Of a DNA stretch of 47,050 bases, positions 35,556-44,851 are shown in pieces. The notes under the pieces were generated by a model that was given only the letters and a program-made list of their open reading frames with translations, was not told the DNA's origin and did no database searches. Origin of the DNA: a virus; IMG/VR virus record IMGVR_UViG_3300045051_000179, positions 1 through 47,050 of that record. One strand, written 5' to 3'. Position 1 is the stretch's first letter; every line of letters starts with the position of its first letter. A program made the position numbers and the translations under genes.

Positions 35556-35629
35556 CAGGGTGTGGTGTAATGGCCGCGCCGCCGCTTTGGGAGCGGACGA
35601 TGGAGGTTCGATTCCTCTCTCCCTGACCA
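35556..35629 (+). tRNA. tRNA-Pro(TGG)
   Basis: Anticodon loop TTTGGGA gives TGG with G37, as usual for proline. T-loop TTCGATT, encoded CCA, one acceptor mismatch. Confidence 0.88.
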
Positions 35630-35630
35630 T

Positions 35631-35710
35631 AGATTCGAAACTAACTTAGATGGACTAAGAGCAGCCTCCAAATCTGCCAGTAAGGGGTTCGATTCCTCTC
35701 GTCTCTGCCA
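35631..35710 (+). tRNA. tRNA-Trp(CCA)
   Basis: Loop CTCCAAA, T-loop TTCGATT, encoded CCA. The D side is longer than usual and the 5' acceptor strand pairs imperfectly, so the 5' end is uncertain. Confidence 0.75.
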
Positions 35711-35711
35711 T

Positions 35712-35787
35712 AGCAGTCTTCATGGTAGGTACCCGACTGGCCTCATAAGCCAAGTCTTTAGCGGCTCAATTCCGCAGGCTGCAACCA
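35712..35787 (+). tRNA. tRNA-Met(CAT)
   Basis: Loop CTCATAA. Acceptor with a 1-72 A-A mismatch, a feature shared with initiator tRNAs, but the anticodon stem lacks the three G-C pairs. CCA encoded. Confidence 0.82.
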
Positions 35788-36100
35788 AATACTACGGATT
35801 GTTGCAACTCTCCGTATGAGTCAAGGGTCGCGAGGTACGCTCTATATGGGCTACCTAGAAGCAGGTGGATGAAAGAGAACAGGCCACTAAGGTGACTCAA
35901 CCTCGTCCTTGATAACCAAATACTTTACTCCGGCCCGATAAACGGAAGTCAGCAACGGGGTAGCCGGAACAAATCGAGTGAGTGACTCTAACAGGCTCGA
36001 TCAATCAAACGCTGGGGACACGAACGGTTCCCTTTCATAGATGTCGCGCATCTATGGCTCAACTAAAGAAAGGATGGTGTTCCATATGACTATACTCTAG
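35788..36100 (+). other. non-coding spacer with hairpins
   Basis: About 310 bases without gene or tRNA. Hairpins TACGGA..TCCGTA (35796), AGGTA..TACCT (35833) and CATAGAT-GTCGCGC-ATCTATG (36036-36056), the last a perfect 7-bp stem. Probably another untranslated RNA. Confidence 0.4.
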
Positions 36101-36114
36101 AAAGGAGGTAGTCA

Positions 36115-36306
36115 ATGGACGGCAAGACGGCTCTGGCTCTCTTGGGTGGCAAAAAGAAGTCACGCACGAAGCACAACAGTCGCAAGGTCGGAAGAAACTA
36201 CCGTTGGGGCGCTGGCCCGGACGGGAAATCGGAAACACATTCTCAGACCAAATATCGTCTTCGTCACGGTATCGGTCCCGGTCCTCGTAAGAGAGAGGCC
36301 AAGTAG
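36115..36306 (+). CDS. small highly basic protein, TAG stop
   Basis: 63 aa from ATG with AAAGGAGG upstream. Lys/Arg/Gly/His-rich throughout (GGKKKSRTKHNSRKVGRNYR), a likely RNA- or DNA-binding protein. Being the first protein gene inside the tRNA island, a role with RNA is tempting but unproven. Confidence 0.68.
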   Translation: MDGKTALALLGGKKKSRTKHNSRKVGRNYRWGAGPDGKSETHSQTKYRLRHGIGPGPRKREAK

Positions 36307-36352
36307 AATTTCATAAGATTTGCCGGAGTTGAACATAAGCAAACCGGCACAT

Positions 36353-36440
36353 GGAACTTTGGCTGAGTGGCTTAAAGTGCTCGCCCGGAAAGCGAGTGTG
36401 GGTAACACCACCGTCAGTTCGAAACTGACAGGTTCCGCCA
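36353..36440 (+). tRNA. tRNA-Ser(GGA)
   Basis: Acceptor GGAACTT/AGGTTCC, long variable arm, loop CCGGAAA with C at position 33 instead of U. CCA encoded. Confidence 0.9.
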
Positions 36441-36441
36441 A

Positions 36442-36504
36442 CGTTCTCAGGAGTGCTTTGGACACTCACGGCCTCGGCTGTCCGGTGAAATCCCGGCGAG
36501 AGCG
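36442..36504 (+). ncRNA. small repeated RNA element, copy A
   Basis: CGTTCTC pairs with GAGAGCG around GGAGT...GCTGTCCGGTGAAATCCCGGC. A second copy with compensatory differences lies at 39076-39141. Untranslated, between two serine tRNAs. Confidence 0.5.
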
Positions 36505-36509
36505 ACAAT

Positions 36510-36594
36510 GGAAGCACCTATGGGTGCAGTACGCGATTTGCTAAGTCGTGAGAGCCGCAAGGCTGTAGGGGTTCGAGTCCCTTTGCTTCCGCCA
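36510..36594 (+). tRNA. tRNA-Ser(GCT)
   Basis: Acceptor GGAAGCA/TGCTTCC, loop TTGCTAA, long variable arm, CCA encoded. Confidence 0.92.
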
Positions 36595-36595
36595 A

Positions 36596-36686
36596 GCGCC
36601 TAAAGTGTATGGTCGAAAGAAAGCACGCTGATCCTAGATATCTGTCGGATCAGAGGATGAAGGTCCGAATCCTTCGGGTTGCGTCA
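36596..36686 (+). tRNA. tRNA-like gene with expanded anticodon loop
   Basis: T-arm GAAGG-TCCGAAT-CCTTC and a 5-bp anticodon stem CTGAT/ATCAG are clear, but the loop is 16 bases (CCTAGATATCTGTCGG) and the 3' end is TCA. Either degenerate or carrying a 9-base insertion. Confidence 0.45.
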
Positions 36687-36688
36687 AT

Positions 36689-36773
36689 GGATGCTCGTAT
36701 AGGAGCACTTAACCGCCTTGAAAGCGGCGATCAGGTAACACTGGTAGGGGTTCGAGTCCTCTAGCATCCGCCA
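36689..36773 (+). tRNA. tRNA-Ser(TGA)
   Basis: Acceptor GGATGCT/AGCATCC, loop CTTGAAA, long variable arm, CCA encoded. Confidence 0.92.
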
Positions 36774-36865
36774 TCCTCGGTAAGGAAAGTCCATCGCGTG
36801 TGTACATGCGTAGGTGGTAGTAACGTCTTTGCAGAATCCTCGTAACAGAGGAGCCGGGGAGCAAT

Positions 36866-36951
36866 GGAATCTTGACAGAACGGTATTGTACCTGCCTCGA
36901 AAGCAGTGGTCACGTCAAGTGGTGTGGGTTCAAATCCTACAGGTTCCGCCA
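36866..36951 (+). tRNA. tRNA-Ser(CGA)
   Basis: Loop CTCGAAA, long variable arm, T-loop TTCAAAT, CCA encoded. Fourth serine isoacceptor in a row. Confidence 0.92.
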
Positions 36952-37009
36952 ATAATGAGTGCCGCTATGCACACAACATCAAGGTCCGAAGCATGCTTAA
37001 ATGAGGGGC

Positions 37010-37038
37010 TTGACAGTATTAGTCGAATGTGCTACGAT
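37010..37038 (+). promoter_or_regulatory. internal promoter of the RNA island
   Basis: TTGACA, 17-base spacer, TACGAT, 12 bases before tRNA-Pro(CGG). Confidence 0.7.
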
Positions 37039-37049
37039 ACAGCACGACA

Positions 37050-37124
37050 TCTGACCGTAGTGTAGCGGTAGCGTACTCGCTTCGGGAGCGAGAGGCAGAG
37101 GTTCGATTCCTCTTGGTCAGACCA
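37050..37124 (+). tRNA. tRNA-Pro(CGG)
   Basis: Perfect acceptor TCTGACC/GGTCAGA, loop TTCGGGA, T-loop TTCGATT, CCA encoded. Confidence 0.95.
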
Positions 37125-37126
37125 GT

Positions 37127-37201
37127 GGGCTGCTAGTGATAGCGGAAGCACGGGTGCCTTGCACGCACTTAGGAGGGGTCCGAGTCCCCTGTGGTCCACC
37201 A
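37127..37201 (+). tRNA. tRNA-Ala(TGC)
   Basis: Loop CTTGCAC, T-loop TCCGAGT, CCA encoded; acceptor has several G-U pairs. Confidence 0.88.
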
Positions 37202-37202
37202 A

Positions 37203-37277
37203 GGGCTTTTAGTGTTATGGGTAACACGGCGCTTTCGCAATGCGCAGGACAGAGTTCAAGTCTCTGATCGTCCACCA
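37203..37277 (+). tRNA. tRNA-Ala(CGC)
   Basis: Loop TTCGCAA, T-loop TTCAAGT, CCA encoded; two acceptor mismatches. Confidence 0.82.
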
Positions 37278-37279
37278 AT

Positions 37280-37363
37280 GGGCCAGATGGTAAGATGGGA
37301 AATCACGGCGCTGTAAACGCCTCGCCATAGGCTACGCGGGTTCGAGTCCTGCCTGTCCCACCA
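37280..37363 (+). tRNA. tRNA-Tyr(GTA)
   Basis: Loop CTGTAAA, long variable arm as in bacterial tyrosine tRNAs, CCA encoded. Confidence 0.92.
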
Positions 37364-37465
37364 ACATCCGAGAAACGCAGTTGGCTAGCACCTTCGAGCG
37401 TTTGGGGCGTAACACTTGCTAGAGTGGTAAGTCTTAGGGCCGCAGTGCCACCAGAGGATGATCAT

Positions 37466-37536
37466 GCCGCTGTCTGTTGGACAGAAGTCTGTTTCGTAAT
37501 CAGACTATGTGGGTTCAATTCCCAACTGTGGCTCCA
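37466..37536 (+). tRNA. tRNA-Thr(CGT)
   Basis: Loop TTCGTAA with a T-T pair closing the stem; T-loop TTCAATT, CCA encoded. Shorter than usual in the D arm. Confidence 0.75.
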
Positions 37537-37630
37537 TGGGCCTTCGGGTCACCGTCAAGGCGCTCGTCTAACGAACCGCCGACTCCATGGGCAGATGGTT
37601 CTCCCTTCGGGTTCGAGACCGGCCCTTCAT
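37537..37630 (+). other. tRNA-like remnant
   Basis: GGGCC and GGCCC ends could pair, and GGTTCGAGACC resembles a T-loop, but no cloverleaf or CCA can be assigned. Confidence 0.3.
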
Positions 37631-37706
37631 GCCTTCTAAGCACATCTGGATGTGCGCAATCTTGGTAAGATTGAGGAAGTGAGTTCGAATCTCACAGTTG
37701 GCTCCA
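37631..37706 (+). tRNA. tRNA-Thr(GGT)
   Basis: Loop TTGGTAA on perfect stem CAATC/GATTG; T-loop TTCGAAT; CCA encoded; two acceptor mismatches. Confidence 0.85.
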
Positions 37707-37707
37707 T

Positions 37708-37728
37708 GGCCCTTAACCGGTTAGGGCC
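37708..37728 (+). repeat. hairpin between tRNAs
   Basis: GGCCCT-TAACCGGTTA-GGGCC inverted repeat. No T-run, so a processing or boundary structure rather than a terminator. Confidence 0.45.
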
Positions 37729-37734
37729 TTCATA

Positions 37735-37808
37735 GCGGACAGGACAAATGGCAAGTCGTCAGTTTCATATGCTGAAGATACAGAGTTCGAATCTCTGGCC
37801 CGCCCCCA
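37735..37808 (+). tRNA. tRNA-Met(CAT)
   Basis: Loop TTCATAT, stem TCAGT/GCTGA, T-loop TTCGAAT, CCA encoded. Could be elongator Met or an Ile tRNA modified at C34. Confidence 0.82.
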
Positions 37809-37809
37809 A

Positions 37810-37885
37810 GTCACCTTGGCCAAATTGGCAAGGCACCTGATTCTCAATCAGGAAAGTGAGGGTTCGATCCCCTTAGGTGATACCA
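37810..37885 (+). tRNA. tRNA-Glu(CTC)
   Basis: Loop TTCTCAA on CCTGA/TCAGG, acceptor GTCACCT/AGGTGAT, CCA encoded. Confidence 0.9.
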
Positions 37886-37886
37886 A

Positions 37887-37961
37887 CCGAGATTGGTGTA
37901 ATCGTTAACACGAGCGCCTTCCAAGCCTTCGTTACGGGTTAGAGTCCCGTATCTCGGTCCA
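37887..37961 (+). tRNA. tRNA-Gly(TCC)
   Basis: Acceptor CCGAGAT/ATCTCGG perfect, loop CTTCCAA, T-loop TTAGAGT, CCA encoded. Confidence 0.88.
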
Positions 37962-37962
37962 A

Positions 37963-38036
37963 GGCTCCCTACCCGAGTGTTAAGGGGCCTGCCCGCAAAG
38001 CAGGAGCCGTAGGTTTAAGTCCTACGGGAGCCTCCA
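37963..38036 (+). tRNA. tRNA-Cys(GCA)
   Basis: Acceptor GGCTCCC/GGGAGCC, loop CCGCAAA with C33, T-loop TTTAAGT, CCA encoded. Confidence 0.9.
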
Positions 38037-38044
38037 ATTCCTAC

Positions 38045-38073
38045 TTGACAGGAGACAAGAAATGCTGTAGACT
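38045..38073 (+). promoter_or_regulatory. possible promoter overlapping the amber gene start
   Basis: TTGACA, 17-base spacer, TAGACT. It overlaps the ribosome-binding site and the amber codon of the next gene, so either the promoter match is fortuitous or the two signals share sequence. Confidence 0.5.
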
Positions 38074-38289
38074 CGTATTGATGTTAATGGCTTCATCGCT
38101 CGTCGTAACAAGGACGAGGGACGGGAAGACCCCGCTATTCGTATCACACAGGGAAACCAAACGTGGTACTGTAAAGAGGTCAAAATCCTAGGGCCATCAA
38201 CAATGATACAGGCTCCGGTTAATCGGGAGCAACCGAACAAACCATACATCTGGCTTGAGACGGAGGCTCCAATCGAATGGTCTAAGTAA
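38062..38289 (+). CDS. hypothetical protein with in-frame TAG at codon 3
   Basis: Reads ATG CTG TAG then TRIDVNGFIARRNKDEGRED and onward to a TAA at 38287. AGGAG lies six bases before the ATG. The body, with TWYCKEVKILGPS and IWLETEAP, resembles a family of small actinophage proteins that normally begin M-x-TRI-x-VN, so the TAG falls inside the natural N terminus. No other ATG, GTG or TTG precedes the conserved part. The amber suppressor tRNA starts five bases after the stop. If TAG is decoded, the product is 75 aa; otherwise translation stops at two residues. Confidence 0.7.
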
Positions 38290-38294
38290 CATAT

Positions 38295-38368
38295 GCTGCT
38301 GTCGCTTAATGGCAGAGCGGGAGTCTCTAAAACTCCTAGTCAGGGTTCGAGTCCCTGTAGCAGCGCCA
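38295..38368 (+). tRNA. amber suppressor tRNA(CTA)
   Basis: Perfect stem GGAGT/ACTCC with loop CTCTAAA: anticodon CTA, which reads UAG. Acceptor GCTGCTG/TAGCAGC, G73, T-loop TTCGAGT, CCA encoded, normal short variable loop. All canonical features are present, so it should be functional. The amino acid it carries cannot be told from sequence alone. Confidence 0.92.
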
Positions 38369-38370
38369 AT

Positions 38371-38445
38371 ACCCCTTTCGTTCAACGGAAAGGATGAAGC
38401 CCTGCGAAGGCTTCGATGCGGGTTCGATTCCCGTGGGGGGTGCCA
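38371..38445 (+). tRNA. tRNA-Arg(GCG)
   Basis: Loop CTGCGAA on AAGCC/GGCTT, T-loop TTCGATT, CCA encoded. Confidence 0.9.
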
Positions 38446-38446
38446 T

Positions 38447-38522
38447 ACCACTTTGGTCCAATGAATAGGATGCCTGCCTTCGAAGCAGGAAGGTGCGGGT
38501 TTGAATCCTGTAGGTGGTGCCA
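38447..38522 (+). tRNA. tRNA-Arg(TCG)
   Basis: Loop CTTCGAA on CCTGC/GCAGG, T-loop TTTGAAT, CCA encoded. Confidence 0.92.
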
Positions 38523-38523
38523 T

Positions 38524-38586
38524 GATCGAGTGGGTATACACGGGGTCGCTCCCGGTGAACGCGGTTCGAGTCCGTAATCGGTCAAC
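38524..38586 (+). other. tRNA-like remnant
   Basis: GATCGA/TCGGTC ends and a TTCGAGT T-loop are present, but the body is only about 63 bases and lacks CCA and a readable anticodon arm. Confidence 0.4.
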
Positions 38587-38589
38587 TAT

Positions 38590-38664
38590 CAGGCTGTAGT
38601 AGCAGCGGTAAAACTCGTCTCTGGGGGAGATGGATCGTCCGTTCGAATCGGACTAGCCTGACCA
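38590..38664 (+). tRNA. tRNA-Pro(GGG)
   Basis: Loop CTGGGGG on CGTCT/AGATG, T-loop TTCGAAT, acceptor CAGGCTG/TAGCCTG, CCA encoded. Confidence 0.88.
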
Positions 38665-38797
38665 ACACAGCAATCGGGTCATGCCCGGTTGTGGTGAATA
38701 TTCGTACCGACAAACCTGTCATTCTCCGAACTTCTAGAGAACGGCTAATGATGTCTCGGTACAGCCTATGGGACCGGTTATCCACGATAGGCCCAAT

Positions 38798-38872
38798 GGC
38801 TCTTTACCCAAGTGGTAAGGGGGTCGCCTGCAAAGCGATTTATCGTCAGTTCGATTCTGACAAGAGCCTCCA
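38798..38872 (+). tRNA. tRNA-Cys(GCA), second copy
   Basis: Loop CTGCAAA (normal U33, unlike the first Cys gene), acceptor GGCTCTT/AAGAGCC, CCA encoded. Confidence 0.92.
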
Positions 38873-38933
38873 TGGGAAATGATGAAGTTGCAAGACTGAT
38901 ACAACTTCTGATCCGCAAGTCAGTCATCCATGC

Positions 38934-38993
38934 CGGTTTTCAAGCGGTTCGCCAGTTCGGGGCGTATCAATAATGCATCCCGCACACACCGGC
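38934..38993 (+). other. structured spacer
   Basis: GCCGGT near 38934 can pair with ACCGGC near 38987, enclosing a GC-rich hairpin. No gene or tRNA. Confidence 0.3.
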
Positions 38994-38998
38994 CACAT

Positions 38999-39073
38999 AC
39001 CACTGTCGTTCAATGGACAGGACGAGCGTCTTCTAAACGTTCAATCAGGGTTCGATTCCCTGTGGTGGTGCCA
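38999..39073 (+). tRNA. tRNA-Arg(TCT)
   Basis: Loop CTTCTAA, T-loop TTCGATT, acceptor ACCACTG/TGGTGGT, CCA encoded. Confidence 0.92.
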
Positions 39074-39075
39074 AT

Positions 39076-39141
39076 GACCTATCGGAGTTCCCCCTTTGTG
39101 GGATCGCTGCTACGCAGTCAGGTGAAACCCCTGCGAGGGTC
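39076..39141 (+). ncRNA. small repeated RNA element, copy B
   Basis: GACC/GGTC closing pairs around CGGAGT...GCAGTCAGGTGAAACCCCTGCGAG. Shares GGAGT, a GCnG stem, GGTGAAAYCCC and GCGAG with copy A at 36442-36504. Confidence 0.5.
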
Positions 39142-39146
39142 TCTAT

Positions 39147-39223
39147 CTCAACTCAGCACAGTGGAATTGTGCAGGCGTTTCCTAAACGCAAGATCGACGG
39201 TTCGAGTCCGTCAGTTGAGGCCA
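39147..39223 (+). tRNA. tRNA-Arg(CCT)
   Basis: Perfect acceptor CTCAACT/AGTTGAG, loop TTCCTAA, T-loop TTCGAGT, CCA encoded. Confidence 0.9.
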
Positions 39224-39225
39224 AT

Positions 39226-39302
39226 GGTGGTCTTCGTCTATGTGGTGAAGATTCTGGCCTGTGAAGCCAATAAGGTGGGTTCGAGTCCCACAGATCACCC
39301 CA
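39226..39302 (+). tRNA. tRNA-His(GTG)
   Basis: Loop CTGTGAA; the extra 5' G (39226) faces C73, the histidine identity pair. CCA encoded. Confidence 0.93.
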
Positions 39303-39303
39303 A

Positions 39304-39379
39304 TGTTCCTTAGCGCAGTGGTTAGCGCACCGGTTTGACATACCGGAGGTCATCAGTTCGAATCTGATAGGTACAACCA
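39304..39379 (+). tRNA. tRNA-Val(GAC)
   Basis: Loop TTGACAT on CCGGT/ACCGG, T-loop TTCGAAT, CCA encoded. Confidence 0.92.
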
Positions 39380-39380
39380 A

Positions 39381-39454
39381 TGAGATATAGCGTAAAGGCA
39401 ACGTGCTTCTGTCACATAGAAGCGTTCACAGTTCGAGTCTGTGTATCTCAACCA
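39381..39454 (+). tRNA. tRNA-Val(CAC)
   Basis: Loop GTCACAT on CTTCT/AGAAG, perfect acceptor TGAGATA/TATCTCA, CCA encoded. Confidence 0.92.
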
Positions 39455-39455
39455 A

Positions 39456-39531
39456 GCACACGTAGTTCAGCGGCAAGAACGCCAGTGTTACATGCTGGGC
39501 GTCGAAGGTTCGAGTCCTTCCGAGTGTACCA
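39456..39531 (+). tRNA. tRNA-Val(TAC)
   Basis: Loop GTTACAT on CCAGT/GCTGG, T-loop TTCGAGT, CCA encoded. Confidence 0.92.
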
Positions 39532-39533
39532 AT

Positions 39534-39610
39534 CTTCACGTATTCCAATTGGCAGAGAAAAACGGCTCAAACCCGTTACAGTGGGAGTTCGAGTCTCCCG
39601 GTGAAGACCA
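39534..39610 (+). tRNA. tRNA-Leu(CAA), short variable loop
   Basis: Loop CTCAAAC on AACGG/CCGTT. The variable region is only five bases (ACAGT), unlike bacterial leucine tRNAs. A73, CCA encoded. Confidence 0.85.
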
Positions 39611-39612
39611 AT

Positions 39613-39733
39613 GCCCCCAGACCCGGCGACATCGTGCTACGCGAACACGACACGTCAAAGGGAGCGGCAATCACCTGTTCTGGTGTTAACGCTAGAGCAT
39701 GAGATTTCGGTTCAAATCCGAATGTGGGCACCA
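39613..39733 (+). tRNA. expanded tRNA-like gene (121 nt)
   Basis: Acceptor GCCCCCA/TGTGGGC and T-arm TTCGG-TTCAAAT-CCGAA with CCA are good, but about 45 extra bases lie between. Anticodon not assignable. Could hold an insertion or be degenerate. Confidence 0.4.
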
Positions 39734-39734
39734 A

Positions 39735-39810
39735 GCCCTAATAGGCCAAGTAGAGCCGCTCCCATTTATAGGGGAGTGCGTTGCAGGTTCATCTCCTGTG
39801 AAGGGCACCA
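39735..39810 (+). tRNA. tRNA with ambiguous anticodon (TTA or TAT)
   Basis: Acceptor GCCC/GGGC, D stem GGC/GCC, T-loop TTCATCT, CCA. Anticodon stem CTCCC/GGGAG encloses an 8-base loop ATTTATAG; a 7-base reading gives TTA, which would decode UAA. T37 in that reading is unusual. Confidence 0.5.
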
Positions 39811-39860
39811 AATACTCACCCATAGCCGTGATGGCTATCTCTTAGAAAGAGGAGGGCGTG

Positions 39861-40094
39861 ATGCCCAAGGAAGTTATACTCGACAGTCAGAACACTCCGA
39901 CCAAGATTCATGAATTTGCAACCCAAGTTCAATGGGGTATAGACGGAACCGTTGAGGTTGCAACTGTCAACCTCTCTAAGGAACAGTACACTAAGGAACG
40001 TGGCTGGTTCGTTTATCTCGATAGAAGTGCAATCAACAAACTGATCAAGACCCTGCGTAGGGCAAGGGATCAGGCATATGGTTCCGACGAATAG
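39861..40094 (+). CDS. hypothetical protein, TAG stop
   Basis: 77 aa from ATG 39861 with AAAGAGGAGG upstream. Strands (FATQVQWGIDGTVEVATVNL) and a C-terminal basic helix (AINKLIKTLRRARDQAYG). Inside the RNA island; function unknown. Confidence 0.68.
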   Translation: MPKEVILDSQNTPTKIHEFATQVQWGIDGTVEVATVNLSKEQYTKERGWFVYLDRSAINKLIKTLRRARDQAYGSDE

Positions 40095-40133
40095 AAGACA
40101 CGTCTGACGTGCTACCGAAGGAGGTAACCCGTC

Positions 40134-40199
40134 ATGATCGAAATTCTTATAGCAATCATACTCATCATCATTATCCTGCGACTACTTCATATCGTTTGA
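40134..40199 (+). CDS. 21-aa membrane peptide
   Basis: ATG with AAGGAGGT upstream. MIEILIAIILIIIILRLLHIV is almost wholly hydrophobic. Strong ribosome-binding site and adjacency to another membrane gene support it. Confidence 0.62.
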   Translation: MIEILIAIILIIIILRLLHIV

Positions 40200-40206
40200 G
40201 GTAGTC

Positions 40207-40401
40207 ATGGACCCCATACAAGAGACATATCACTTTTGCTCTGGGTACAGTGGGCTCTGGAAAGATTGCCCCAAGGTAAATCCAGACATGGTAGCAGCAG
40301 CCAACCACGCCGTAGTCGGCGCAGTTCTCCTCGTAATCATAGTGATCGGGGTCTTCTTGGTTGGTGTCGCAATGCTGATGATCTTCTCTGATGACAATTA
40401 A
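40207..40401 (+). CDS. small membrane protein
   Basis: 64 aa with GAGG upstream. Polar N terminus with two Cys, then one long hydrophobic span (AVVGAVLLVIIVIGVFLVGV). Precedes the RNase P RNA promoter. Confidence 0.65.
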   Translation: MDPIQETYHFCSGYSGLWKDCPKVNPDMVAAANHAVVGAVLLVIIVIGVFLVGVAMLMIFSDDN

Positions 40402-40442
40402 ACCCTTCTAAGGCATCCGTCAGGCCCCTCTCAACAAGGGGC

Positions 40443-40471
40443 TTGACAAAACTCTCTGATCCTGTTATACT
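40443..40471 (+). promoter_or_regulatory. promoter of the RNase P RNA
   Basis: TTGACA, 17-base spacer, TATACT; start predicted at about 40478, exactly at the first base pair of P1. Preceded by a GCCCCT..AGGGGC hairpin. Confidence 0.85.
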
Positions 40472-40477
40472 CTCGCT

Positions 40478-40815
40478 AGAGAGATGGAAAGACCATCGCG
40501 CATATCCGAATGACTTGTTCTTCGGTGAGTGAGGAAGGTCGGCGCTCCCAGTTGCAGTCTAGTGGTTAACGGCCACCTACCGCGAGGTACGACACGGCAA
40601 CAGTGACGAACCGAAGTAATGTTCGGGTGAAACGGGCGACAGGGTAGACGGAGAAAGTTGGGTACCTATTGGGGCGCAACGCTACGGTACCGGGTAACGA
40701 AATTGAGGCGTCTGGTAACAGCCGCTCAAGTTGGATGATGGTCCTTCAGTTGGGAGACGTTTCATACGTCGTTTGAACCAAGGTCTGACAAAACGCCGCC
40801 TAATGAAATCTCTCA
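40478..40815 (+). ncRNA. rnpB: RNase P RNA
   Basis: About 337 nt. P1: GAGAGAT (40479-40485) with ATCTCTC (40808-40814). P2: AGACC (40490) with GGTCT (40782). P4: AGG-T-CGGCG (40536-40544) with CGCCG-CCT (40794-40801), keeping the bulged U of the catalytic core, while its base pairs differ from Escherichia coli. P8 GTGG..CCAC and P9 TACC-GCGA-GGTA (GNRA loop) follow, then GGCAACAGTGACGAACCG, GGGTGAAACGG and CTGGTAACAG, matching conserved regions II, III and the P13/14 segment. RNase P removes 5' leaders from tRNA precursors, fitting an island of over 50 tRNA genes. No protein subunit is in this window; the host RnpA could serve. Confidence 0.9.
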
Positions 40816-40824
40816 AACTATATG
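40816..40824 (+). other. AACTATATG boundary motif, copy 1
   Basis: Directly follows the 3' strand of RNase P P1. One of eight related motifs in the island, most placed after the 3' strand of a helix. Confidence 0.55.
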
Positions 40825-40836
40825 CACCGAGGGGTC

Positions 40837-40866
40837 GCGGGTTCGAGTCCCGTTAAGGACGAGTTG
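40837..40866 (+). other. orphan tRNA 3' half
   Basis: Canonical T-arm GCGGG-TTCGAGT-CCCGT followed by TAAGGAC, without a 5' half next to it and without CCA. AAGGAC is complementary to GTCCTT at 40741, inside the RNase P RNA. Confidence 0.4.
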
Positions 40867-41300
40867 ATGGATTTGCTAACCGTATCTCCTTATAAACTCA
40901 GTGGTAGAGTTCCTCGGCAATTATGATCACGAGTGAATAGACCGGGACGGCTCATCGCCAAATCCGGAGCGTTCAGGTCCCGTAACCAGCCGGGTAGACA
41001 ACTTACTGACAAGACTATCAGATGACTCGTGATACTACATAGATGGAGCCTGATGGCAAGGGTAGTGACCCCGGCAAGCCATCAATAGGATCGATTGCGA
41101 GTTCTGTCGTCACAGCAGGACTTCCGGATGACGTACCCGGAGACTATATGCAGCGACTACGAGAGGACCACCTTCGGGTAAGACTTCGGTCGGGGTTTAC
41201 AAATCGCTGTACACTACATACACGGTACGGAAAGGTCTAAGTGCCCGTGCCAAGGCTGGATCGCACAACTAGACCTGTGCCAGCCAACTAAATAACAGGA
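40867..41300 (+). other. structured non-coding spacer
   Basis: No gene. Holds a D-arm-like ACTCAGTGGTAGAGT, hairpin TCCGG..CCGGA then GACTATATG (boundary motif copy 2), and a following stem CAGCGA..TCGCTG (41151/41206). Probably one or more untranslated RNAs. Confidence 0.45.
41123..41150 (+). other. hairpin plus ACTATATG boundary motif, copy 2
   Basis: TCCGG (41123) pairs with CCGGA (41137), immediately followed by GACTATATG. Confidence 0.6.
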
Positions 41301-41307
41301 GATGACT

Positions 41308-41454
41308 ATGCTAGACATTATCCTACTCGCAGTCGGTGCGATTCTATTCGCTCTGGATGCGGCTAACGTGAAGGTCGGCACTGTGAAACTTGTCTCACTC
41401 GGTCTTCTGGCTTGGATTCTTGTACCGCTTCTCGGAGCGCTCAAGGTCGGCTAA
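41308..41454 (+). CDS. small membrane protein
   Basis: 48 aa with AGGAG upstream. Two hydrophobic spans (LDIILLAVGAILFALDA and LVSLGLLAWILVPLL). Tiny holin-like topology, but no family evidence. Confidence 0.65.
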   Translation: MLDIILLAVGAILFALDAANVKVGTVKLVSLGLLAWILVPLLGALKVG

Positions 41455-41515
41455 CTACATTGCGTCCTAGTTTGTGGTGATGGGGACGGTATAAATTCAA
41501 TCCACATACATACAT

Positions 41516-41590
41516 TCCGGAATCGTCTAATCGGTAGGACGCAGGGCTCTGAACCCTGAAATCGAGGTTCGAGACCTCTATTCGGAACCA
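41516..41590 (+). tRNA. tRNA-Gln(CTG)
   Basis: Loop CTCTGAA on CAGGG/CCCTG, T-loop TTCGAGA, CCA encoded. Confidence 0.9.
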
Positions 41591-41591
41591 A

Positions 41592-41668
41592 GGGGACTTA
41601 GCACAATTGGAAGTGCACAACTCTGGCAGAGTTAAGGTTGCGAGTTCAAGTCTCGTAGTTCTCCACCA
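41592..41668 (+). tRNA. tRNA-Ala(GGC)
   Basis: Loop CTGGCAG, T-loop TTCAAGT, CCA encoded. Confidence 0.85.
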
Positions 41669-41765
41669 TCGGGTCTCAATGGCTCGTAGATTTTTGGGTT
41701 ACGTGTTCAGTTTCGTTAGTTCGTTAGTTCGTTCGTTTCGTTTCTTGGCCGCTATTGAGACCCGA
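41669..41765 (+). ncRNA. stem-loop RNA with 12-bp stem and purine-poor repeat loop
   Basis: TCGGGTCTCAAT pairs perfectly with ATTGAGACCCGA; the 73-base loop is almost free of A and contains repeats of GTTAGTTCGTT and TTTCG. Starts at the base after the CCA of tRNA-Ala. Not a tRNA and not coding. Confidence 0.6.
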
Positions 41766-41776
41766 CAACTAAATAT

Positions 41777-41862
41777 GGGGATTCATCGAACGACTCAGCG
41801 GTGAGACGCCGTGAAAACCGTCAGGTGTTTACATCTGACTCTGTGGCTGGTCCGCAATCCCC
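41777..41862 (+). ncRNA. tRNA-sized structured RNA without anticodon
   Basis: Ends GGGGATT and AATCCCC pair over 7 bp; inside is an 8-bp hairpin GTCAGGTG-TTTA-CATCTGAC and an arm TGTGG..CCGCA. Lacks a T-loop consensus, anticodon loop and CCA. Confidence 0.5.
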
Positions 41863-41871
41863 TACAAACAT

Positions 41872-41945
41872 GGCGCTTGAACATAGGGTTGAGTTGTTTG
41901 CCTTTCAAGCAATCGAAGCGGGTTCGAGTCCCGCAGGCGCTACCA
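41872..41945 (+). tRNA. tRNA-Glu(TTC)
   Basis: Loop CTTTCAA, T-loop TTCGAGT, CCA encoded. Confidence 0.9.
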
Positions 41946-41947
41946 AT

Positions 41948-42024
41948 GCTTGTCTACTCCAATAGGTAGAGAGAATAGGTCGAGAGCCTATGCAGTTCGG
42001 GTCCGAATCCCGAGGCGAGCACCA
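41948..42024 (+). tRNA. tRNA-Leu(GAG), short variable loop
   Basis: Loop TCGAGAG (C33) on ATAGG/CCTAT; five-base variable loop; T-loop TCCGAAT; CCA encoded. Confidence 0.88.
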
Positions 42025-42089
42025 TGAAGTTGGCAGTAACATACTTCTGCCCTAACGAGGCCCCGAAGGCTGAGCCCGACTTCGACAAT

Positions 42090-42166
42090 GCTTTTCTATC
42101 CCAATCGGTAGAGGAACAGCCCTCAGAAGGCTGCAAGTGTGAGTCCGAATCTCACGGAGAGCACCA
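42090..42166 (+). tRNA. tRNA-Leu(CAG), short variable loop
   Basis: Loop CTCAGAA on CAGCC/GGCTG; five-base variable loop CAAGT; D arm closely matches Leu(GAG) and Leu(TAA), suggesting duplication. Confidence 0.9.
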
Positions 42167-42168
42167 AT

Positions 42169-42253
42169 CGAGATATGCTGGAATTGGCATACAGGCTAGT
42201 CTTAGAAACTAGTGCCGAAAGGATTGAGAGTTCGACTCTCTCTATCTCGACCA
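42169..42253 (+). tRNA. tRNA-Leu(TAG), long variable arm
   Basis: Loop CTTAGAA on CTAGT/ACTAG, 13-base variable arm as normal for leucine, CCA encoded. The only class II leucine tRNA here. Confidence 0.92.
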
Positions 42254-42305
42254 TCCGCACGCTGTTGAAGTCAGATAGCAGTTAAAGTCTGCTGGTGTGG
42301 GTCAT

Positions 42306-42381
42306 ACCGTTGTAGCACAGTTGGAAGTGCGTCGGCTTGCCAAGTCGAAGGTCCGGGGTTCGAGACCCCGTAGCGGTACCA
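42306..42381 (+). tRNA. tRNA-Gly(GCC)
   Basis: Loop TTGCCAA, T-loop TTCGAGA, acceptor ACCGTTG/TAGCGGT, CCA encoded. Confidence 0.92.
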
Positions 42382-42383
42382 AT

Positions 42384-42456
42384 GCCTAGTGGTGTAACGT
42401 TAGCACGCCGTCCTGATAAGACGGAAGTTCCTTGTTCGACTCAGGACTGGGTACCA
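42384..42456 (+). tRNA. tRNA-Ile(GAT)
   Basis: Loop CTGATAA on CCGTC/GACGG, CCA encoded; T stem weak. Confidence 0.88.
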
Positions 42457-42457
42457 A

Positions 42458-42537
42458 CCTTATTGAGCACGGCTAGGTATGCGTGCAGGTCCCTGATAAG
42501 GACAAGGCCGAAGGTTCAATTCCTTCAATAAGGACCA
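42458..42537 (+). tRNA. tRNA-Ile(GAT), second copy
   Basis: Perfect acceptor CCTTATT/AATAAGG, loop CTGATAA, T-loop TTCAATT, CCA encoded. Confidence 0.9.
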
Positions 42538-42538
42538 A

Positions 42539-42615
42539 GCAGATGTAGTGTAGTGGTCTAACATCTCTCCCTGTCAAGGAGATGATCGCCAGTTCGAATC
42601 TGGTCATCCGCGCCA
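42539..42615 (+). tRNA. tRNA-Asp(GTC)
   Basis: Loop CTGTCAA on TCTCC/GGAGA, T-loop TTCGAAT, CCA encoded. Confidence 0.93.
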
Positions 42616-42617
42616 AT

Positions 42618-42693
42618 GGCTTCGAAGACAAATGGCATAGTTGTTCGATTGTCAATCGAAAGGGAGTGGGTTCAATCCCCATCGGAGCCGCCA
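42618..42693 (+). tRNA. tRNA-Asp(GTC), second copy
   Basis: Loop TTGTCAA on TTCGA/TCGAA, T-loop TTCAATC, CCA encoded. Sequence differs widely from the first Asp gene. Confidence 0.9.
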
Positions 42694-42694
42694 A

Positions 42695-42768
42695 GGTCTT
42701 GTAGTTTAACGGAAGAACAAGGGCGTTGTATCCCCTTGGTCACAGTTCAATTCTGTGTGGGACCTCCA
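42695..42768 (+). tRNA. tRNA-Thr(TGT)
   Basis: Loop GTTGTAT with a C-C mismatch closing the stem, T-loop TTCAATT, CCA encoded. Confidence 0.82.
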
Positions 42769-42771
42769 ACC

Positions 42772-42844
42772 GCTGATTAGTGTAACGGACAGCACGCCAG
42801 TCTTTGAAACTGGAAGAACGGTTCGATTCCGGTAGGTGGCATCA
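42772..42844 (+). tRNA. tRNA-Gln(TTG), TCA end
   Basis: Loop CTTTGAA on CCAGT/ACTGG, T-loop TTCGATT. The encoded end is TCA, so the host nucleotidyltransferase would have to repair it. Confidence 0.82.
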
Positions 42845-43226
42845 AACGGTCCCGTATCGCTATCCTGCAAGATAGGCGATCCTTCATTGCAGTGGAGTGT
42901 GGACTCCGGAATCGTCACCGGAGATTATATGCTAGATAGTCTGATGCGGATGCATCCGCTTAGGCCGGTCATGAACGGGCGTAGACTATCGAACAAAACG
43001 TCTACGGTTCCCATGACGTAAAAGATTCCGGGGGAATAAGCGTACAGTATCGCACTGCAAGGTGACCTGATACTCAGGCTATGCTCGACATAGACGATCT
43101 AAAGAGAGTGCGCAAAACGCAGCAAACGTGGTCGGAGGACCCGAATAAGTCCGTAACCCTTGTGGTAGACGGTGAAGGTGCGAACGGGCGGAAGCCTTTG
43201 GGTGAAAGTGGCTGCGAAATAAGGGC
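42845..43226 (+). ncRNA. large structured non-coding RNA region I
   Basis: About 380 bases. ATCGCTATC..GATAGGCGAT, hairpin CTCCGG..CCGGAG followed by ATTATATG (boundary motif copy 3), then GATAGTC..GACTATC (7 bp) enclosing GCGGAT..ATCCGC. No reading frame with a start signal. Density of perfect helices implies a folded RNA. Confidence 0.5.
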
Positions 43227-43255
43227 TTGACAAATGGTTGGCAACCTGCTACAAT
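43227..43255 (+). promoter_or_regulatory. internal promoter of the RNA island
   Basis: TTGACA, 17-base spacer, TACAAT. Drives structured region II and the tRNA-Phe to tRNA-Gln group. Confidence 0.8.
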
Positions 43256-43261
43256 ACGGCT

Positions 43262-43815
43262 AAGCCGATGAGGACACTCGAACCTCGACGGTACGCCCAA
43301 GGGGACCTTTCTGCTGACTCCCTAGTCGCGTCAGGTTGGGTGATCTGGAAACGGAATCACGTCGGAACTCTCCTAACCGACAAATCATTAACCGGTCGTA
43401 GGAGTGCTCAATCACTTCCCTTGGCAATTGAGAAGGCCATGGAGAACCCGACGCTGGCTTTGCGGAACCAGCAACTATATGTAAAGGGTGTCGTGCATGC
43501 TCCTGACAAGTGTGCTAGTCAGAGTCAGGTCTGATGATACGCGACTTCAGGAGCCACCCTGAAACTATATGATGGTAGGGCTGTGGAGCAACCCGAGTAT
43601 GACGCGATTACTTCTCGGGAACAGCGGTGAAGCAGCCCGTCGCGCTTTTCATTAGTCCGTTTGTGGGCGGTAACCGGACGTTAAACCGAAACCCTCGTTA
43701 TATAATGCGTCGATGTGGAAGTTACCTGCTAGTCACAGGACGACTCTCCCGGCTATCCCTTGACTAAGGATGGTGTTCCGACCGGCCCAGCAGAGGTCGG
43801 CTACGGAAGCGCAGT
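43262..43815 (+). ncRNA. large structured non-coding RNA region II
   Basis: About 550 bases from its own promoter to tRNA-Phe. GTCGG..CCGAC, GCTGG..CCAGC with AACTATATG, GTCGTG..CGCGAC, TTCAGG-AGCCAC-CCTGAA with ACTATATGATGG, then GGGCTG..CAGCCC enclosing CCCGAG..CTCGGG whose loop CGCGA can pair with TCGCG (pseudoknot). The tandem order helix, ACTATAT, helix is repeated. Large ornate phage RNAs such as GOLLD or ROOL are possible relatives, not verified. Confidence 0.5.
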
Positions 43816-43821
43816 AACAAT

Positions 43822-43897
43822 GCTTCTTTGGCTGAGTTGGTCAAAGCGGGGGCCTGAAAAACCTCATATCTCAGTTCGAATCTGAGAGGGAGCACCA
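43822..43897 (+). tRNA. tRNA-Phe(GAA)
   Basis: Loop CTGAAAA, T-loop TTCGAAT, acceptor GCTTCTT/AGGGAGC, CCA encoded. Confidence 0.9.
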
Positions 43898-43899
43898 AT

Positions 43900-43977
43900 G
43901 CTCGTCTATTCCCAATAGGCAGAGGAAAGCGTCTTAAACACGTTTCAGTCTGAGTTCGAATCTCAGGACGAGTACCA
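43900..43977 (+). tRNA. tRNA-Leu(TAA), short variable loop
   Basis: Loop CTTAAAC, five-base variable loop TCAGT, T-loop TTCGAAT, CCA encoded. Same body type as Leu(GAG) and Leu(CAG). Confidence 0.88.
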
Positions 43978-43978
43978 T

Positions 43979-44055
43979 AGATCGCTGGCGCAACGGTTAG
44001 CGCTCTTGTCTTATAAACAAGCGGTTTCTGAGTTCGAGTCTCAGGCGATCTACCA
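43979..44055 (+). tRNA. tRNA-Ile(TAT)
   Basis: Perfect acceptor AGATCGC/GCGATCT, loop CTTATAA on CTTGT/ACAAG, CCA encoded. Confidence 0.93.
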
Positions 44056-44056
44056 A

Positions 44057-44131
44057 CGTTTCTTCGCCAAGAGGAAAGGCAGTGGTTTCATAAGCCACTA
44101 TGCGATGGTTCGAATCCATCAGAAACGACCA
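44057..44131 (+). tRNA. tRNA-Met(CAT), third copy
   Basis: Perfect acceptor CGTTTCT/AGAAACG, loop TTCATAA, CCA encoded. Met or lysidine-type Ile cannot be told apart. Confidence 0.88.
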
Positions 44132-44137
44132 TGCGGG

Positions 44138-44197
44138 AGGAGAGCCAATCCCTCTCCTTCTGACAATTGCTCTGGATTGGAGAGTACAATGTCTAGA
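44138..44197 (+). repeat. hairpin spacer
   Basis: CCAATCC (44145) pairs with GGATTGG (44174) across a 22-base loop, between two tRNAs. Confidence 0.4.
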
Positions 44198-44200
44198 TAT

Positions 44201-44275
44201 GGGCCTCTAGCACGACGGTCGTGCATGCGTCTTTTAAACGTTAGGGTCGGAGTTCAAGTCTCCGGGGGCTCTCCA
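44201..44275 (+). tRNA. tRNA-Lys(TTT)
   Basis: Loop CTTTTAA, T-loop TTCAAGT, CCA encoded. Confidence 0.9.
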
Positions 44276-44276
44276 A

Positions 44277-44351
44277 TGCAATGTAGTTCAGCGATAGAAC
44301 TGGTGGCCGTTAACCATCGTGTCGTAGGTTTGAATCCTACCGTTGCAGCCA
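44277..44351 (+). tRNA. tRNA-Asn(GTT)
   Basis: Loop CCGTTAA (C33) on GGTGG/CCATC, perfect-type acceptor TGCAATG/CGTTGCA, CCA encoded. Confidence 0.9.
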
Positions 44352-44352
44352 A

Positions 44353-44427
44353 GGGTCATTAGCACAATGGTGGTGCAGAAGGTTCTTACCCTTCCGGATA
44401 TCGGTTCGAGCCCGATATGACTCTCCA
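44353..44427 (+). tRNA. tRNA-Lys(CTT)
   Basis: Loop TTCTTAC on GAAGG/CCTTC, T-loop TTCGAGC, CCA encoded. Confidence 0.92.
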
Positions 44428-44428
44428 T

Positions 44429-44504
44429 ACTCGCATCGACTAATTGTTAAGTCTACTCGCTGTTAACGAGGAAGATACAGGTTAGAATCCTGTGACGAGT
44501 GCCA
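44429..44504 (+). tRNA. tRNA-Asn(GTT), second copy
   Basis: Loop CTGTTAA, T-loop TTAGAAT, CCA encoded; two acceptor mismatches. Confidence 0.85.
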
Positions 44505-44505
44505 T

Positions 44506-44580
44506 AGGCAGATGACTACTGGTCGTCTAACTAGTCCCTTAAACTAGGATATCGGGGTTCGATTCCCCGTCTGCTTACCA
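44506..44580 (+). tRNA. tRNA-Lys(CTT), second copy
   Basis: Loop CCCTTAA (C33) on CTAGT/ACTAG, T-loop TTCGATT, CCA encoded. Confidence 0.9.
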
Positions 44581-44776
44581 TAGGGCGATGTTGTAGTCCT
44601 GATAGTTAACACCGCGCGGCGCTTGGCATCAGGTCACATTCTAGCCCTCTCCAACGAAGTTCCGTACCCCAGTGGACATCTTGCTTGCATGAGTGTTCGC
44701 GGCTTGCAACAGGGAGGCGTCCTGTTGACTTCGATCAAATCTTCTTCGGGGCAAGAAGTAAACAATGCTCCACCAT
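44581..44776 (+). other. non-coding spacer with tRNA-like start
   Basis: Begins GGGCGATG and reaches TAGCCCTCTCCA near 44653, which could be a decayed tRNA, but no T-loop or anticodon arm is visible. The rest is unassigned. Confidence 0.3.
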
Positions 44777-44851
44777 TCCCCTCTCGTCTAACGGTAGGAT
44801 TCGTGGCCTTGAACCATGTAGATGCTAGTTCGAATCTAGCATGGGGAACCA
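44777..44851 (+). tRNA. tRNA-Gln(TTG), second copy
   Basis: Loop CCTTGAA (C33) on CGTGG/CCATG, T-loop TTCGAAT, CCA encoded. Confidence 0.87.

Follow-up and report, generated by a model that had tools for sequence, protein, structure and literature searches.

The window, by which we mean the whole analysed stretch of 47,050 nucleotides (positions 1 to 47,050 of the IMG/VR record IMGVR_UViG_3300045051_000179), comes from a tailed phage whose record encodes a portal protein, a tape measure protein, tail proteins and a DnaB helicase. A terminase gene, as an additional phage marker, lies just outside the window at 47241-47681, and ribonucleotide reductase as well as Thy1 are encoded inside it. On the plus strand, the window contains an island of tRNA genes at 35556-44851, in which ARAGORN with default settings recognizes 47 tRNAs and about six weaker candidates can be added. 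The original prediction of more than 50 phage tRNAs is plausible when these candidates are included, whereas the default search alone stays at 47. Within this island, at 40478-40815 (+), the phage carries a gene for an RNase P RNA, which by its match to the Rfam model RF00010 and by its helix map is of the bacterial class A type without P13-P14 and with an enlarged P19. A sigma-70 type promoter with 11 of the 12 consensus positions (TTGACA-17 nt-TATACT, 40443-40471, +) ends 6 nt 5' of P1, in agreement with the promoter that had been claimed to initiate at P1.

When positions 40380-40900 were compared with all Rfam families using cmscan, RF00010, the model of bacterial class A RNase P RNA, matched 40480-40817 (+) from end to end (model positions 1-367 of 367) with 93.9 bits and an E-value of 2.1e-29 in this 521-base search, and it is the single RF00010 match in the virus record, which comprises 111,050 bases in all (E = 1.1e-30). 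The boundaries proposed originally, 40478 and 40815, are correct within a few bases. Since the curated gathering cut-off of RF00010 is 100 bits and the RNA of the window stays 6 bits below it, a default Rfam scan misses the RNase P RNA and reports only the tRNAs. The minimum free energy of the RNA gives no signal by itself (z = -0.5), and the evidence for an RNase P RNA is the covariance-model score together with covariation rather than folding energy. For the latter, related phages were found in three ways, via the portal protein, via a conserved RNase P motif and via a clade-specific RNA pattern, while a query with the helicase found none. In all six related phage contigs the RNA is located between tRNA-Leu(CAA) and tRNA-Gln(CTG); the tRNA-Gln found immediately 3' of the RNA in the relatives lies at a distance of 700 nt in the window. 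Five of the six relatives pass the RF00010 cut-off, with G053 as the exception, and five have promoters with 10 of 12 consensus positions at a nearly equal distance from P1, whereas that of G053 has only 8 of 12.

The helix map comprises 63 pair positions in five distinct members of the clade; their strands were placed by visual inspection, with the known RNase P fold as the guide. Among these members 311 of 315 pairs are canonical (99% paired), and 32 of the 63 pair positions, including some in P4, have changed on both sides, whereas only 71% of the pairs are canonical in a control in which the 5' strand of one member was paired with the 3' strand of another. The helices P1, P2, P5, P7-P9, P12, P16 and P18 are present and supported by covariation. 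The predicted P1 and P2 helices were both found on the plus strand as GAGAGAU/AUCUCUC (40479-40485 with 40808-40814) with two-sided changes in six of seven pairs and as GACCAUC/GAUGGUC (40491-40497 with 40737-40743) with such changes in three of seven pairs, respectively. P5 (CUCC/GGAG, 40545-40548 with 40650-40653, +) reads CAAC/GUUG in G053, and the expected GNRA loop of P9 is a GCGA within the hairpin UACC-GCGA-GGUA (40578-40589, +), of which all four pairs show two-sided changes in the relatives. P4 with its bulged U at position 40539, which had been described as covarying and is formed between CR-I and CR-V, is AGG-U-CGGCG/CGCCG-CCU in the window (40536-40544 with 40794-40801, +) and is paired differently in G004, as AAG-U-CCCCG/CGGGG-CUU, with the bulged U kept. 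The original prediction of an RNase P RNA in the tRNA island is thus borne out by a significant covariance-model match and by P1, P2 and P4 pairing that is maintained in related phages through compensatory changes. These data also bear on the question whether the gene could be a passenger, or a host rnpB copy in decay, that was acquired along with tRNA genes and has no selected function. For such an origin it could be argued that the copy in the window scores below five of the six relatives and that incomplete tRNA-like pieces are found near it, but half of the pair positions have changed on both sides and 99% are still paired, and the promoter and the position are conserved over divergent members, so that this reading is already disfavoured and we regard it as very unlikely. 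Moreover, the clade-specific RNA pattern has no match in a collection of genomes of 84,980 species, and therefore a recent capture is not indicated. Separately, the CR-I string of the window has 18 exact matches in bacterial genomes, none of them with a paired CR-V except L305, which we attribute to chance and rejected as an RNase P RNA due to its lack of an RF00010 match and its location in a coding region.

Compared with bacterial class A rnpB (RF00010), the phage RNA shares P1-P5, P7-P9, P12, P15-P18, the bulged U of P4 and the GGU of L15 over a full-length model match, but it is located in a tRNA array, has no P13-P14, has an enlarged P19 and carries a compensated A-U to G-C change in P4 (AAG/CUU to AGG/CCU). 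The P16/P17 hairpin is located at 40661-40691 (+) according to the helix map and the RF00010 alignment, and L15 GGU at 40693-40695 (+) is aligned to CGGGUA of RF00010 and corresponds to the element with a role in CCA pairing (PMC4919922). P13-P14 of the specificity domain are absent, as 43 model positions are deleted, and this is also the case in most other aligned phage RNAs. The possibility that the 43 positions comprise P15/L15, and with it the loop that binds CCA, was rejected, as the alignment shows P13-P14 deleted and L15 kept. Since the loss of P13-P14 is described as not unusual (PMC8172020), we do not take these helices as defining class A. The enlarged P19 region (40744-40787, +) is specific for the clade and contains a conserved UUGG/CCAA (GUGG/CCAC) pairing and a capping stem. 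In the window and its relatives this region shows the conserved motif GUUGUGGGAG...UGAACCAC with variable capping loops (e.g., GAAA, UUCG, GCAA), which is possibly a kink-turn-like element. The P10/P11 pairing is weak in the RNA of the window, the adenines of J5/15 are kept, and in the CR-V ACAG the usual G is an A, likewise in G009 and G036.

No RnpA (PF00825) was detected in the own record or in 25 other RNA-bearing records, 26 in total, which may be fragments; therefore, the host protein is probably used, although the own record is incomplete and a phage RnpA could lie outside its sequenced part. Without a phage RnpA the RNA has to compete for that of the host, and this would also suit a non-catalytic decoy that binds host RnpA or pre-tRNAs and thereby lowers host RNase P activity and the host tRNA supply; so would the changes at two positions that are normally conserved, from A to G in P4 and from G to A in CR-V. 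However, both strands of P4, its bulged U, L15 GGU and the J5/15 adenines are kept and the changes in P4 are compensated, all of which would be needless for a pure protein decoy, and within the clade the RNA is always found amid phage tRNAs, which themselves depend on RNase P. We therefore consider a decoy function unlikely.

Maturation of the phage tRNAs appears to be the best-supported role for the RNA of the window, and the array has the features expected of a substrate. Among the 47 tRNAs recognized by ARAGORN, 44 have CCA encoded at the 3' end, 30 have U at position -1 and 25 are separated from the preceding tRNA by a spacer of only 1-3 nt, so that the latter would be separated mainly through cleavage by RNase P. 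In bacterial RNase P, L15 GGU pairs with the 3' CCA of the tRNA, and for both this contact and that between the U at -1 and the J5/15 adenines a role in recognition is described (PMC4919922). The suggestion of a poor match between host rnpB and the phage tRNAs found no support, as the encoded CCA, the mostly present U at -1 and L15 GGU are ordinary bacterial features. A special substrate specificity is therefore not indicated, and the benefit is more likely to lie in dosage or in not depending on host rnpB. In the six relatives, the P1 end is located 6-9 nt 5' of tRNA-Gln, and hence freeing the tRNA-Gln would also make the 3' end of the ribozyme. Judging from the sequence, we consider it quite probable that the phage encodes a functional RNase P RNA, which would be transcribed from its own promoter within the tRNA array, would team up with host RnpA and, as a holoenzyme, would cut the 5' sides of the phage tRNAs, thereby parting those of them (about half) that are packed with 1-3 nt spacers. 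The same cleavage would also free the ribozyme from the shared transcript, at the tRNA-Gln 6-9 nt 3' of it in the six relatives and at flush tRNAs in other phages, and the phage would gain fast tRNA maturation, or a maturation independent of host rnpB, during infection. As a separate observation on the array, the tRNA at 38295-38368 has the anticodon CTA, is labelled Pyl by ARAGORN and is likely an amber suppressor; the lengths of the open reading frames give no sign of a recoded stop codon.

To estimate the breadth of the phenomenon, IMG/VR was scanned with motifs and the matching records were searched with RF00010, which matched in 46 records besides the own record. With the window included and identical cores removed, there are 35 loci with an RNase P RNA near at least three tRNAs, 34 of which have covariance-model support (all except L155). 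A tRNA is adjacent downstream in 15 of these loci, upstream in 19 and on both sides in nine. At least two records with the RNA among tRNAs, G033 (340 kb) and G036 (98 kb), encode a T4-type portal protein and a terminase, and beyond these phage markers are shown for few of the other array-bearing records. As all records are metagenome assemblies, a bacterial RNA gene could in principle have been wrongly joined to a phage contig, and some viral contigs with few or no tRNAs (e.g., L117, L118, L133) may be prophage edges beside a host rnpB. For the gene of the window we consider such an assembly artefact extremely unlikely, since seven contigs, of which five also encode a terminase, share the position of the RNA in the array, and 16S rRNA was found in none of 30 records and RnpA in none of 26. 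The genome of Microcystis phage MaAM05 (MW495066.1, L088) has an RF00010 match of 251.8 bits; it was not counted as phage evidence, because it has no terminase or T4 portal match while the housekeeping genes glyS, engB and fabI are present, and it may not be a phage. BLASTN searches of the phage RNAs against GenBank phages gave only pieces of bacterial chromosomes, unannotated faecal contigs and chance matches. Tentatively, we suggest as one possibility that a self-releasing operon of tRNAs and RNase P RNA exists in large phages from several lineages that are not related to each other; its ribozyme, transcribed between tRNAs in the manner of a spacer, would release itself as well as the tRNAs with the help of host RnpA only, making the tRNA supply independent of host rnpB. 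A tmRNA gene and an RNase P RNA occur together on one viral contig in G083, G033, G081, L030 and L056.

RNase P RNA is among the few near-universal ribozymes and is regarded as a cellular gene, and phages are assumed to borrow the function of RNase P from their hosts; the tRNAs of T4 are classic RNase P substrates and are matured by the host enzyme. While the ribozyme class is known, its carrier, its placement and its apparent breadth are new. In the incomplete body of full-text literature that was searched, we found no report of a phage-encoded RNase P RNA, so that a prior description is possible. In the megaphages of PMC8172020, Rfam found only tRNAs and one tmRNA, and the main text of PMC7162821 on huge phages covers tRNAs, synthetases and other factors and does not mention RNase P there. 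The RNA described here resembles the tRNA arrays and tmRNA genes of such phages in being an RNA of the translation machinery in a tRNA-rich region of a large phage (PMC7162821, PMC8172020). The RNase P RNAs of the Candidate Phyla Radiation are divergent, require lowered thresholds and lack P13, P14 and other helices (PMC8172020); they are similar to the RNA of the window in the sub-threshold score and the missing P13/P14, but they are the single essential copy of the cell, whereas the latter is carried by a phage. Phage copies would add the enzyme of tRNA maturation to the tRNAs, synthetases and tmRNA that make up the translational self-sufficiency of phages, and would imply a selective pressure, perhaps from host RNase P being in short supply or from a defence of the host that acts on tRNA processing. 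Furthermore, they offer a large number of divergent natural ribozymes for studies of structure and function and make it possible to test directly why phages carry tRNAs.

Other elements were noticed in the same island. A candidate Y RNA-like element (YrlA, RF02553) at 40815-40931 begins exactly at the end of the RNase P RNA and scores 28.4 bits (E = 6e-4 in 721 bases; the RF02553 cut-off is 69); it has T-arm-like and D-arm-like parts and a minimum free energy that is not unusual. There are four copies of the string ACTATATG in the window (40817, 41143, 43474 and 43564), each in a non-tRNA gap of the island and sometimes with a stem 3' of it, and none of 100 shuffles reached this number. A Ro60/TROVE protein is not found in the own record, but such proteins are present in four other viral records that bear an RNase P RNA (G048:158401, G009:1373, G039:105932 and G083:33721).
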